Part shown: positions 3,188 to 23,161 of the stretch, one piece after another
Layout: each line of letters starts with the position of its first letter
Numbering within the stretch: position 1 is the first letter of the stretch
Assembly: GCA_041530395.1 (NCBI GenBank)
Contig: CP136945.1
Location: 620,001-684,000 of the forward strand
DNA: 64,000 nt
Origin: Thermosynechococcaceae cyanobacterium Okahandja
Lineage (GTDB): Bacteria > Cyanobacteriota > Cyanobacteriia > Thermosynechococcales > Thermosynechococcaceae
Direction of reading: 5' to 3'
The notes under the pieces: generated by a model
The model's input: only the letters and a program-made list of their open reading frames with translations
Told to the model about the DNA's origin: nothing
Databases searched by the model: none
Translations under genes and position numbers: made by a program

Positions 3188-3314
3188 CTATCAAGCCTTG
3201 CATAATATGCTGGCCGCATGACTAAGCACTATTGTGTAAGCTAGGTATTAGGGGATAGCAGACTGAGTGCATCGCTCTGCCTACCCAGAATGCTCGTGAG
3301 TGAGGAGTAACATT

Positions 3315-5150
3315 GTGAAGAAAACATACCTTTTAGCGGGTAGTTTGAGCCTACTGGGTGTTGTCGCAGGGGCCAACATTGCTACCGCTAGCGAACCCGC
3401 TGCCTTTGGAAGTCTGATTGCGGCTGAACCCCAAAATCTGCAAGTTTCTGAAGCATTACCTGCCCCCAACGCCGTTGCCGATGCCTCTAGCGTGATCACA
3501 TCCGTGGATCAGCTTCTGGCCAATGAAGAGTCCATGGGTCAGGTAACCTCTGTTTCTCAGCTTTCGGACGTGCGCCCCACCGACTGGGCCTACCAAGCCC
3601 TAGCCTCCCTCGTTGAAAAATACGGTTGTATTGCGGGTTATCCCGATGGTACCTTCCGGGGCAACCGCGCCGCCACTCGTTACGAAATGGCTGCCGCCCT
3701 GAATGCCTGCTTGGATGTCATTAGCGATCGCTTTGCCACCAAGGAAGAACTGGCCACGCTGCAAAAACTAATGGACGAGTTCGCTGCTGAACTCGCCACC
3801 CTGCGCGGTCGTGTGGATAACCTCGAAGCTCGTACCGCTGCCCTCGAAGCCACCCAATTCTCTACCACCACCAAACTCACCGGAACCGCGGTGATGTCGG
3901 TGCAGTACGGTGGCCGCTTCAGCAGTAACTCCCTTCTTTCTAGCCCGCCGTTTAGCCTAGGTTCAATTGTGCCTAGCTCCACGGTACCCACCGCGGCAGT
4001 TAGTCCATTATCCCCGATTGGTTGGGCCGTCCCCACCCAAACAAACCCAACGGTTATTGCTGCTGTGATTCTTAACCTGAACACCAGCTTCACCGGTACC
4101 GATTTACTGCAAACGAGCCTTTCCACTGGGAATGGTGGCTTAGATGCCATTAGTGCTTATGGTGTAGGCCTAAACCAAAACCCCTTTGCCTACGGCATCA
4201 TCCCCTTGGGCAACCCAACCTCTACGTTTGGCGCGCCCCTGCCCTACTTTAGCCCCAGCCAGTACTACTGGTCTGGCTTTGGTCCGGGGGTTAACCTGTA
4301 CCGCTTGGCCTACAGCTTCAAGCCCACTCAGGACATCACCATTACGGCAGGTCCGCAGTTCTACCCTAGCGACATTATTGACACCAACAGTTGGGCCAAC
4401 TCCCCTGCCAGTGACTTTGGCACCTACTTCTTCATCAATAACCCCTTCATTGTTCCTTACGCGATGAACTTCTTAGGGGGTGCCGGTGCCGCGATTCAGT
4501 GGAACCCCAACGAAGGACCGTTTACCATGCGGGCGCTTTACGTGGCGGCTAACGCAGGGAACCCCTTCTCGGGTGTGCTACCTAGCGGTGGTTTCGCTGG
4601 TGATCCGTTCCAAGGCTCTTTGGAGCTAGAGTATGCGGGCACGTTTGGCAATGGCGCCAACAGCTATGCGGTTAAACTGCAAGGCACCTACTCCAAAACC
4701 TTTGGTGTTGAGAGCCAAGCTGGTGGTCTGAACTTTGAAGTGAACCTTGGCCGTTTGGGTATCTTTGGCCGTGCAGGTATTGCGGGCATTCCCGGCAGCT
4801 ACAACCCCCTCATGTCGCCACTGCCTTACTCGTTCCTCGTCTTCCCTGCCTCTGGGATGATGGCCTACAGCTTCATGGCGGGTATTGGTTATAAAGACCT
4901 GCTGGTGCCCGGTTCTGTGTTGGCGGCAGCCGCGGGTGCGCCGTTTATTAACAGTGCTCCGACTGCTGGGTTTATCAACAACGCTAACCAAGTGAACGTG
5001 GAAGCCTTCTACAAGTTTCCCCTCAGCGACAATATCAGCATCACGCCTATTTTCACGGCCATCATTAATCCCAATAACACTAATGGTGCAGGGATCATCT
5101 CTGGTCAGCCGATTCTTCAGGGCGTGATTCGGACAACCTTTACTTTCTAA
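3315..5150 (+). CDS. Iron-uptake-type porin (SLH + OprB barrel)
   Basis: 611 residues. I start at GTG 3315 because GAGGAG lies 7 bases upstream and the encoded N-terminus (VKKTYLLAGSLSLLGVVAG) is a clean signal peptide; the in-frame GTG at 3300 has no such site. Then come a single SLH domain (about 75-135, with TDWAYQALASLVEKYGCIAG and GYPDGTF), a coiled-coil segment (about 140-180, KEELATLQKLMDEF onward) and a long beta-strand region ending in Phe, as outer-membrane barrels do. This is the cyanobacterial Som/iron-uptake porin family: SLH anchors to peptidoglycan-linked polysaccharide and the barrel passes small solutes, including inorganic iron. It is monocistronic, with promoter at 3158-3187 and terminator at 5187-5214. 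Confidence 0.93.
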   Translation: MKKTYLLAGSLSLLGVVAGANIATASEPAAFGSLIAAEPQNLQVSEALPAPNAVADASSVITSVDQLLANEESMGQVTSVSQLSDVRPTDWAYQALASLVEKYGCIAGYPDGTFRGNRAATRYEMAAALNACLDVISDRFATKEELATLQKLMDEFAAELATLRGRVDNLEARTAALEATQFSTTTKLTGTAVMSVQYGGRFSSNSLLSSPPFSLGSIVPSSTVPTAAVSPLSPIGWAVPTQTNPTVIAAVILNLNTSFTGTDLLQTSLSTGNGGLDAISAYGVGLNQNPFAYGIIPLGNPTSTFGAPLPYFSPSQYYWSGFGPGVNLYRLAYSFKPTQDITITAGPQFYPSDIIDTNSWANSPASDFGTYFFINNPFIVPYAMNFLGGAGAAIQWNPNEGPFTMRALYVAANAGNPFSGVLPSGGFAGDPFQGSLELEYAGTFGNGANSYAVKLQGTYSKTFGVESQAGGLNFEVNLGRLGIFGRAGIAGIPGSYNPLMSPLPYSFLVFPASGMMAYSFMAGIGYKDLLVPGSVLAAAAGAPFINSAPTAGFINNANQVNVEAFYKFPLSDNISITPIFTAIINPNNTNGAGIISGQPILQGVIRTTFTF

Positions 5151-20659: not shown

Positions 20660-23161
20660 CTAGAGGTAAAGGAGCACACGCACCATCACGGCTGTTGCCA
20701 CAATCCCTAGCCCTTGGGGCAACAGGGAAGGCAGGGGCAGCCGACTAATTTTTTGGCTCAGTACTAAACTGGCAACGACGCTGACCCCTAAGGCCGCTGT
20801 TTGCAAAAACGCAATCACGGCTGGGTGGGCACTCCACTGCACACTCATGCCTGTACTCAGGCCAAACGTGGCTAGGGTCACCGGCACAAGCTGTCCTGCT
20901 TCACCGAGGCCAAGGGGCAAGTAGTAGGCAAGGTTAGCGCCGAGCACTAGCGGTAAATAACCGTAGGCCAAGCGCACAAAGGGCTGCGGCTGCCCCCAAA
21001 GGCGCTGGGCTTGGTGTAGCCCCCAGGCCAGTGCGCCGGGCACGGCTAATAGGAGCATGGCCACTCCCGCCTGTACCCCAAACGATGCCGCAGGTTGACC
21101 CCACCACGCCAAGATGTGGGGTAGGTGGTGCAGGACGACCGCCCCTAGCAGTAGAAACAGCAAACAAACTTCGTAGGCGGTGGCGGTATGGCTCGTCCAG
21201 AGGTCAATGGCGGGGGGACGGAGATTTAGCTCGACGGAGCGGTGGGGGCAGGCCTTAAGGCAGGTCATGCACAGCACACAGTTACGATTGTCCGTCAGTT
21301 GCGCCGGATGGGAATACACAGGACAGCCGCCGGTGGCTTGGCCTTCACCAAGGGCGGGGCCTCCTTTGTAGCACTGGTAGGTGTCACAACTGGCGGCACA
21401 TACCCCTTGCTGGGCGCGCAACTCAAGAATTGACAGTTTGCCAAACAACCCATTCATCCCGCCAATGGGGCACAGGTAGCGACACCAAAAGCGGCGTTCG
21501 TAAAGCTGCGAAAAAATCACCGCGCCCGCTGTAATCAGGATCAGCAACCAACTGGAGAGGTAGGCGGTATTGGGCAGATCCCACAGTTCCTCCCACAGGA
21601 GAATAGCGGCAAATAGGGCAAACAGGAACCAGCCCCCCCATTTTTCCGCCAAGGGGCGCGGCCAAGCCCCTAACTGCCGCGGCAATAGCTTCAGGGAGAG
21701 GGTTTGCAACAGTTCGCCATAAATCATGAACGGGCAGACGGCACACCAGATGCGCCCCAAAAAGGGAAAGATCAGCAGCGAGACGGGCCACCACCACGCC
21801 CAAAAGAGATTCAAGGCAAGGTTATGGGCGCGGTCTTGTGGCCCCCACAGGCCAATGGCCACAATCAGCGGAAAGGCCCACAGGGTAATGCCATAGTTCA
21901 GGTAATTGGGCCACCACCGACTGCGCAGCAGGGCGCGCAACCGGGGATAGGCATTGAGGAGATTCCAGCGGAAGCGGCGCTGCTTTGAGTGCTCCGGCCA
22001 AAAGACTTCTTCGGTAAGGAGGCTGGCTCCATTGGCCTGGAGAATGGCGCGCTCCACCAAGCTGGCCAATTCCCGCAGGTTTCCGGGAAAGTCATAACTT
22101 TGCAGCCGTCGCAGGGCTTCGCGGGTGATGCGGGGTTTGGGGATGCGCTGACTGCGGCAGCAGAGGGCAATGTAGTAATTCACCAAGGCTTCCAGATCCG
22201 CTTTGGTGACCCGCAGGGGAGGAACCTTTATGACGTGGCGCACCAGATCTTGGCAGGTGCAGTCCTTTTTCTCGGCAATGAGGATAATCCGCCCCGGAAA
22301 TGAGCGTGGTATTGCAGTGGTCTCACTGGCGGGGGCATACTCCCTGTTTTGGACGAGCCGTCGCAGTTGGGGATAGAGGTGGCTTGGCCACTCGTGCACG
22401 TTGTTGAGAATGAGGGTGCCTTCTCCTAGCCAGTCTAAGAGGCCTTGCTTGCCCCCGGCTTTGCCAAAGAGTTCAGCCCCATTGACGGAGAGGGTACCGC
22501 AATTCACCTGAATCAAGGGTTGGCGGCGATCGCCCGAGCCGTAGTGAATGAGGGCGGCAATGTTATCTTTTTCCAGTCCCGGTTCGCCAAAGATAAGGAC
22601 GGGGTGGCGATCGCTGGCGGCTTCTTTGATGGCTTGGCGCAACCGCACCGCATAGCGACTGCTGCCAACAATACCCTGCCTGACCCGCGGCACCAGATAG
22701 GGACGGAGGGCCGCTTGCCGCTCTTTTTCGTAGGCCAGTTGCGCCGCAACATCGGCTAGGGCACCCTTGATCTGCTGGGAAATAGTTTGCCGTAGTTCCG
22801 GAAATTGGGCGGCCAACCGTTCAAACACATCCCGCGCCAGCGTCCACACCTCACAGTCGCTGAGGGTAATGACTGTTTGGGGGGTGGGCTGATCTAGGAC
22901 TAATTCCTGCCAGTGGAGCACCGTCCCCGGCAGCAGAGACACAACCGCGGCAGGTGTATCCGCTGTGGTGTGATAGGCTTCGAGGTGTCCTGAGTACAGA
23001 ATGTAAAGGGCGGTAACGGGTTGATCCTCAAGAACCAAGCGCCGATTCGCGGCAATGTGCTCTTGGCGCACAGCGGCGGCGATCGCCTCTAGGGCAGCTA
23101 AGGATAGGGAGGCTAGGGGGGTATGGCGCTGCAGCCACTGCAACCGTTCCAGCACGTTCAT
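20660..23161 (-). CDS. Fusion of cyclic-nucleotide-binding-like, degenerate sigma-54-type AAA+ and NapH-like iron-sulfur membrane domains
   Basis: 833 residues. Part 1 (about 1-130) is a CRP/CNB-like fold ([40 protein letters not shown]). Part 2 (about 165-390) resembles the central domain of sigma-54 activators: GEPGLEKDN (192-200) at the Walker A position, [11 protein letters not shown] (248-258) at Walker B, and [20 protein letters not shown] near the end. The ATPase looks dead: the Walker A Ser/Thr is Asp, the acidic Walker B residues are Asn, and no GAFTGA loop exists ([11 protein letters not shown] instead). Part 3 (about 415-833) has several membrane spans with CAVCP (473-477), CRYLCP (560-565), a Cys-rich loop (588-613) and a 4Fe-4S motif [12 protein letters not shown] (628-639), like NapH/NosR polyferredoxins. 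No helix-turn-helix. It overlaps ruvB by 4 bases (ATGA). Probably a membrane redox sensor or electron carrier; function unknown. Confidence 0.8.

Follow-up and report, generated by a model that had tools for sequence, protein, structure and literature searches.

A gene in the window, the whole stretch of 64,000 nucleotides analyzed here, encodes a protein that we read as an electron-transfer protein of the membrane, with a regulatory head incapable of hydrolysis, and not as a transcription factor, a reading to which, taken in full, we give an even chance. A CNB fold and an AAA+ domain of the sigma-54-activator type are joined in a single chain to an iron-sulfur membrane module in which twelve cysteines are invariant in all aligned members of the family, and the motifs for ATP hydrolysis and for sigma-54 contact are lost. 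Two further observations are new: one group of relatives (group B) is found in gene clusters of the sulfide type, and the group of close relatives (group A) is accompanied in many species by a membrane peptide of some 29 residues that carries no annotation. The family is widespread in cyanobacteria and essentially unstudied, and the electron-transfer reading competes chiefly with roles in metal reduction, assembly or transcription.

Domain Architecture and Sequence Motifs

The 833 codons at 20660-23161 of the minus strand (Table 1) form one frame without interruption in a host genome that is a single contig of 2.82 Mb. Pfam recognized cNMP_binding at residues 34-119 (1.5e-13), Sigma54_activat at residues 164-285 (2.5e-14), AAA_lid_14 at residues 320-385 (4.3e-13) and, in two stretches and over the cut-off, Fer4_5 (7.5e-09). 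The full-length AlphaFold model (mean pLDDT 86.8, pTM 0.60, with residues 589-622 poor) combines a CNB fold and an AAA+ domain with a membrane part made of helices. In structure comparisons, residues 160-390 matched FleQ and NtrC1 with a Z of 23.4 over 227 residues, and residues 1-135 matched the CNB-B domain of PKA RI-alpha (Z 17.6) and HCN2 (Z 17.3) over about 130 residues. The three-part layout proposed in the initial annotation was thus borne out by Pfam, NCBIfam, the AlphaFold model and the structural matches, and both profile and structure searches assign the middle part to the AAA+ proteins of the sigma-54-activator type. The absence of a DNA-binding domain, likewise claimed at the outset, also held, since no DNA-binding family, HTH or Fis included, was matched in Pfam at E ≤ 1 across the 833 residues.

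Table 1. Features of the 833-residue protein, with positions in the window, and examples of the accompanying peptide.
Feature	Position	Strand	Basis
Whole gene, 833 aa: CNB / sigma-54-type pseudo-AAA+ / membrane iron-sulfur protein	20660..23161	(-)	single ORF, Pfam, NCBIfam, AlphaFold
CNB fold without conserved phosphate-binding Arg, residues 1-135	22757..23161	(-)	Pfam 34-119, structural matches, PBC residues
Sigma-54-activator-type AAA+ domain and lid, residues 160-395	21977..22684	(-)	Pfam, structure comparison, FleQ alignment
Walker A-like GEPGLEKD, residues 192-199	22565..22588	(-)	alignment, conservation
Site of missing GAFTGA loop, residues 232-240	22442..22468	(-)	FleQ alignment; pattern in 0/171 rows
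Walker B-like GTLILNN, residues 248-254	22400..22420	(-)	alignment, conservation
NapH-like membrane module and extra C-terminal helices, residues 400-833	20663..21964	(-)	TIGR02163 below cut-off; AlphaFold pTM 0.87
CxxCP, residues 473-477, Cys 473 and 476 invariant	21731..21745	(-)	alignment
CxxxCP, residues 560-565, Cys 560 and 564 invariant	21467..21484	(-)	alignment
Eight invariant Cys, hydrophilic iron-sulfur part, residues 588-638	21248..21400	(-)	alignment; pLDDT <50 at 589-622
Peptide examples	L071:5818-5931, L077:5841-5966, L126:497-604	minus	profile

The membrane module resembles NapH/MauN (TIGR02163) in its membrane helices and paired cysteine motifs within residues 467-645, where NCBIfam returned an E of 1.6e-13, but the score of 50.8 bits lies below the cut-off of 213.05, and the family differs in having twelve invariant cysteines, long extra C-terminal helices and a regulatory head. 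The features by which NapH-like polyferredoxins are more widely recognized were all found, namely membrane helices, paired Cys-Pro motifs and a 4Fe-4S ferredoxin motif, the last scoring below the Pfam cut-off. Of the two paired motifs, the CxxxCP at residues 560-565 is as first described, but the other is CxxCP (473-477). Cys 473, 476, 560, 564, 588, 592, 597, 613, 628, 631, 634 and 638 are invariant in 171 of the 171 rows of the family alignment, and twelve such ligands would fit three [4Fe-4S] clusters. Against solved structures, Foldseek gave no match for the module at E ≤ 0.001 and the best VIA-align Z was 6.3; these weak results do not amount to a new fold. All 12 cysteines are also present in a free-standing 4Fe-4S protein of Deinococcus ficus (DFI_RS15945, 31 percent identity), which shares the membrane module but has no CNB or AAA head. 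Its gene, on a plasmid (L197:8042-10323, plus strand), shares four bases with the adjoining gene, whose His-rich product appears to be exported, and DUF305 and two-component genes lie within 9 kb.

In the AAA+ domain, the Walker A motif GESGTGKE of FleQ aligns to GEPGLEKD, the departure being Glu for Gly directly before the lysine, with the acid after the lysine common to both. Of the 141 group A rows, 140 have the lysine, usually within GEPGL[E/G]KD, and 139 have Asp at the next position; position 197 is Glu in 105 of the 141 and Gly in 29, and only five changes between the two were counted on a tree of 132 sequences. This motif is therefore not plainly ruined, as had initially been supposed, but conserved in an unusual form. 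The replacement of the Walker B acids by Asn was recognized correctly: FLDE of FleQ aligns to ILNN, of the 141 group A rows, 135 have Asn at position 253, 135 have it at 254 and 130 match the NN pattern, and the DE pattern is present in none of the 171 family rows. In group B, all 14 rows have GKT, 11 have Asp at 253 and 12 have Asn at 254. The missing GAFTGA loop was confirmed as well, the stretch being deleted relative to FleQ and the pattern absent from all 171 aligned rows. That the Walker motifs are unusual but conserved argues that the site has not decayed; judged from these residues, nucleotide binding may survive, and the domain most likely neither hydrolyzes ATP nor contacts sigma-54.

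The protein thus shares the AAA+ fold, the Walker A lysine and the lid with bacterial enhancer-binding proteins (FleQ, NtrC1, PspF, NtrX), but departs from them in the deleted GAFTGA, the Walker B NN and the Glu before the Walker A lysine, in having no DNA-binding domain, and in residing in a genome without a sigma-54 DNA-binding domain. A genome profile search found no PF04552 in the window genome (G000), which makes it probable that the activator module was re-used, as the initial annotation had argued from a lack of sigma-54 in cyanobacteria. Among 54 family-bearing genomes PF04552 exceeded the cut-off in one, G172, and there partially; it was weak and below the cut-off in G061 and was detected in 4 of 14 control genomes. 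The partial match in the cyanobacterial genome G172 (G172:C1:411956-412339) has an E of 2.3e-16.

The CNB domain is like those of the PKA regulatory subunit and HCN channels in fold, but unlike them in that the phosphate-binding Arg, which contacts cAMP, is not conserved in the family in either plausible register. Its place is taken in the window protein by Thr 93, Pro 94 and Gln 95, and in group A Arg is found at 93 in none of the 140 rows listed, at 94 in 10 of 141 and at 95 in 26 of 141, which renders cAMP-type binding doubtful. For the PBC Glu, an ungapped alignment to PKA points to position 84, which is not Glu in any of the 141 group A rows, whereas Glu 86, present in 114 of the 141, could stand in if a two-residue gap is allowed.

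Family Groups, Distribution and the Probable Synechocystis Orthologue

Homologues at E ≤ 1e-100 were present in 41 of 58 relatives, the host genome included, and, across the phylum, in 103 of 386 genomes (rows listed, groups B and C counted), so the layout is not a product of chance. The 103 positive genomes all belong to one class, Cyanobacteriia, over which the family is spread patchily, even inside Thermosynechococcus: 7 of 11 genomes carry the gene, the G010 copy being in two broken pieces, G002, G004 and G006 have no family gene, and G007 has a fragment alone. Three groups were distinguished, group A being the close kind, group B about 40 percent identical and with a CNB of its own, and group C CNB-less. 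The alignment of 171 rows comprises 141, 14 and 16 rows of groups A, B and C, with the window protein twice in A, and is biased toward what the searches returned, one set being the best 80 of 371 matches. Group C comes mostly from one small-genome family, putative picocyanobacteria, two rows of which (L135 and L137) were placed in group A by the identity cut, and it also contains L169, a CNB-less row with a group B-like Walker A. Little or nothing of a CNB is present in 16 of 16 group C rows and in five of group A, among which are a broken copy, L135 and L137; since the group C rows all retain the AAA domain and the membrane module, these two parts constitute the core. A homologue of 1121 residues at L172:8043-11408 (plus strand) has a CNB and two tandem AAA domains ahead of the membrane module. 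At L173:7956-10668 (minus strand) a group B homologue appears as two overlapping frames; on reading the sequence a split gene was rejected for what is apparently a frameshift.

In Synechocystis, slr1529 is probably the orthologue of the window protein. In G127 the genes for the group A protein, ScpA and Ffh follow in that order on one strand, a gene order with which slr1529 would agree, Slr1531 being Ffh (PMC12475003; PMC3479031), and the annotation of slr1529 as nitrogen assimilation regulatory protein (NtrX) is also borne by a group B protein on an Aulosira plasmid; the comparison is one of gene order and annotation. According to the accessible portions of the respective papers, the transcript ratio of slr1529 (ntrX) was 0.29 at high copper, a fall among those of many genes of a general stress response (PMC4182526), the transcript and its antisense RNA were lowered in iron deprivation (PMC3516471), and, at 72 h, the knockout was one of the six whose metabolome had changed most, and it was outside the four mutants with a growth difference in standard medium (PMC5318462). 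Cyanobacterial regulators with cNMP or Fer4 domains have been noted (PMC1858693, in part), and the accessible part of PMC7522525 contained nothing informative on the family. Among the literature matches listed, which cover titles and abstract openings of open-licence PMC papers, the CNB/AAA+/iron-sulfur architecture is described nowhere, in keeping with the earlier statement that no characterized protein of this layout is known.

Gene Neighborhoods

The window gene had been described as translationally coupled to ruvB, with ilvC in front. The window gene does overlap ruvB by the four bases ATGA, but the data give no support for ruvB and ilvC as a meaningful context, the arrangement being lineage-specific. 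Among the loci examined, many with 1.5 kb flanks, ruvB adjoins the family gene only in the window (L001) and in L003, where the overlap is absent, and the only further case, L173, has ruvB about 6.5 kb away; in four other Thermosynechococcus genomes the divergent neighbor is a gene whose sequence we take to be TypA-like. As a functional partner ruvB was accordingly rejected. No neighbor of at least 70 aa recurs in more than 20 of 89 group A loci, and the largest cluster stands at scattered positions. Recurrent sulfur neighbors are absent from group A as well, the cysK cluster being near 4 of 89 loci in scattered places, and neither group A nor group B has metal genes as recurring neighbors. 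In the regions preceding 85 non-redundant group A genes, NtcA boxes were found for three, against 14 of 410 background regions, and LexA, Fur, FNR and CRP-type boxes for none or nearly none; a loosely defined ATA..TAT motif showed a modest excess over background (41 of 85 compared with 146 of 410). Cytochrome bd, present in 53 of 74 genomes, was rejected as a co-occurring partner for want of association (29 of 43 genomes with group A against 24 of 31 without). Elsewhere in the window, 3300-5150 of the plus strand encodes an iron uptake porin family protein (NF033921).

Around group B, a cysK-cluster gene is near 13 of 17 loci, several of them from one genus, and cysK lies directly downstream in 8 of 14. 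Subsets of about two to four loci each have neighbors that match ArsR, CydB, PetC and PSII D1 over the cut-off and SQR-like, rhodanese and sulfur-dioxygenase-like families below it, and further subsets contain genes that are presumably Hdr-like and TSUP-like. On two cyanobacterial plasmids (L195 and L196), an annotated cysteine synthase gene is next to group B, with PetC and Q(B) (PSII D1) genes nearby, and one of the two also has annotated DsrE, glutaredoxin and rhodanese genes; this plasmid set resembles a portable sulfide-response cluster. Group C has a zinc- or manganese-type ABC transporter nearby in 2 of 16 loci and a Fur-family-like gene in 4 of 16, all by matches below the cut-off.

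A Peptide of About 29 Residues Accompanying Group A

The strongest signal upstream of group A genes came from the antisense of a small divergent frame, which encodes some 29 residues with a single predicted helix and a consensus near MSLSDLPNLWVPLALLGLIVLAAVFFSRS; the frame is either oriented divergently to a group A gene or next to scpA. A profile of the peptide gave 53 matches below E 1e-8 among 67,933 frames, seeds and repeated genomes included, the next being at E 0.34. Frames that could be placed are upstream of group A on the opposite strand, and a few overlap the assigned gene start. Over 715 pairs the median dN/dS was 0.092, and 8,483 synonymous stand against 4,081 non-synonymous codon differences in this frame, the two alternative reading frames giving 1,902 against 10,557 and 636 against 11,776; the peptide codons are under purifying selection. 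The peptide matched no Pfam or NCBIfam family and, among PDB chains, nothing better than E 0.13.

The peptide was found in 49 of 80 genomes with group A (E ≤ 8.4e-5), leaving 31 in which it was not found, and in none of 69 without group A (E ≤ 0.005), of which 44 have no family member, 7 group B only and 18 group C. At E ≤ 0.1, weak matches appear in 23 of these 69 (best 0.0076), and matches in 52 of the 80. The site is more than 10 kb from group A or on another contig in 18 of the 49 genomes, and 9 of 20 sites fetched place the peptide beside scpA or one frame away. On an 88-genome tree, about five independent pairs were concordant, none discordant and three to six uninformative (median p 0.06). 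In Nostocales, 19 of 22 genomes with group A and 0 of 12 without have the peptide, a Fisher comparison that overstates the co-distribution because the 12 negatives need only two changes on the PNPase tree. G345 has group A without the peptide, within a clade lacking both. In none of six Thermosynechococcus genomes searched, the window's own among them, was the peptide found, nor was it seen upstream of scpA in that genus. In G039 (L256:1729-5536, plus strand), NdhF/NdhD-type antiporter-like genes are upstream of a weak peptide match and scpA.

Discussion

Following the NapH analogy, we propose that the C-terminal module would hold three [4Fe-4S] clusters at the membrane, with either the quinone pool or a donor in the cytoplasm as their partner in electron exchange. 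The head, a CNB-fold sensor together with a sigma-54-type AAA+ domain that most likely neither hydrolyzes ATP nor contacts sigma-54, might serve as a regulatory or oligomerizing device that gates the clusters or signals their redox state. For group B, this role may be tied to sulfide and persulfide chemistry, and in many cyanobacteria the single-helix peptide is likely to be a small subunit. The architecture, the invariant cysteines, the lost motifs for hydrolysis and sigma-54 contact, the sulfide-type surroundings of group B and the peptide with its selective constraint are what we observe; cluster content, electron partners, gating and subunit role are what we infer. Counted against the electron-transfer reading are the NapH match far below its curated cut-off, the want of a clear structural match for the membrane module, a group A with neither a sulfide context nor a widely shared neighbor of at least 70 aa, the lack of association with cytochrome bd, and a peptide that was not found in Thermosynechococcus or in 31 of the 80 group A genomes, is missing beside group A in G345 and gave a median p of 0.06 on the 88-genome tree. 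A more far-reaching version, which we advance tentatively as possible, holds that the family is a new class of membrane redox receptor in which an oligomeric pseudo-AAA+/CNB head derived from a sigma-54 activator, in a phylum that lacks sigma-54, would gate electron flow through a three-cluster module, with the micropeptide as subunit, and so couple the plastoquinone pool to the sulfur or metal redox state.

The module might instead move electrons across the membrane to a periplasmic metal ion, such as copper or iron, under regulation by the head, much as CcoG reduces copper. The Deinococcus module gene, with its overlapping gene for a His-rich, apparently exported protein and the DUF305 and two-component genes within 9 kb, is consistent with such a metal reductase, and so are the below-cut-off transporter and Fur-family-like neighbors of group C and the lowered slr1529 transcript at high copper, although the latter is one among general stress genes (PMC4182526, in part). 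Considering that neither group A nor group B shows recurrent metal genes in its neighborhood, we regard this role as unlikely. Several AAA+ proteins serve as assembly factors, and the retention of the AAA domain in groups A, B and C despite the lost hydrolysis motifs would accord with a head that helps to mature or assemble the iron-sulfur membrane part or its partner complex, as an adaptor and not as a gate of electron flow; however, assembly AAA+ proteins normally hydrolyze ATP, whereas the Walker B acids are lost here, and such an adaptor seems improbable. It is quite unlikely that all groups serve sulfide or persulfide chemistry, with group A as the general-purpose version: the group B context and the same 12 cysteines across the groups point that way, but not the scattered sulfur genes around group A. 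A membrane-tethered transcriptional regulator acting without sigma-54 has in its favor the NtrX-type annotation of the Aulosira protein and of slr1529 in the accessible text of the Synechocystis papers, together with the large metabolome change of the knockout (PMC5318462, in part), but is quite unlikely given that no DNA-binding family, no GAFTGA pattern and no sigma-54 domain in the genome were found, which is also why we do not consider the protein a transcription factor.

A nitrogen regulator function, as the relatives are labeled, is unlikely. Since slr1529, the probable orthologue, has been deleted with no growth change in standard medium reported in the accessible part of the study (PMC5318462), the electron-transfer reading is directly testable. 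If it is true, a gene whose relatives bear the label of nitrogen regulators would be a regulated electron-transfer protein in the phylum of oxygenic photosynthesis, and it would show the recycling of a sigma-54 activator where sigma-54 is missing. It would moreover add a micropeptide partner without a Pfam or NCBIfam match and provide a first means of probing a redox connection between sulfide chemistry and the photosynthetic membrane.
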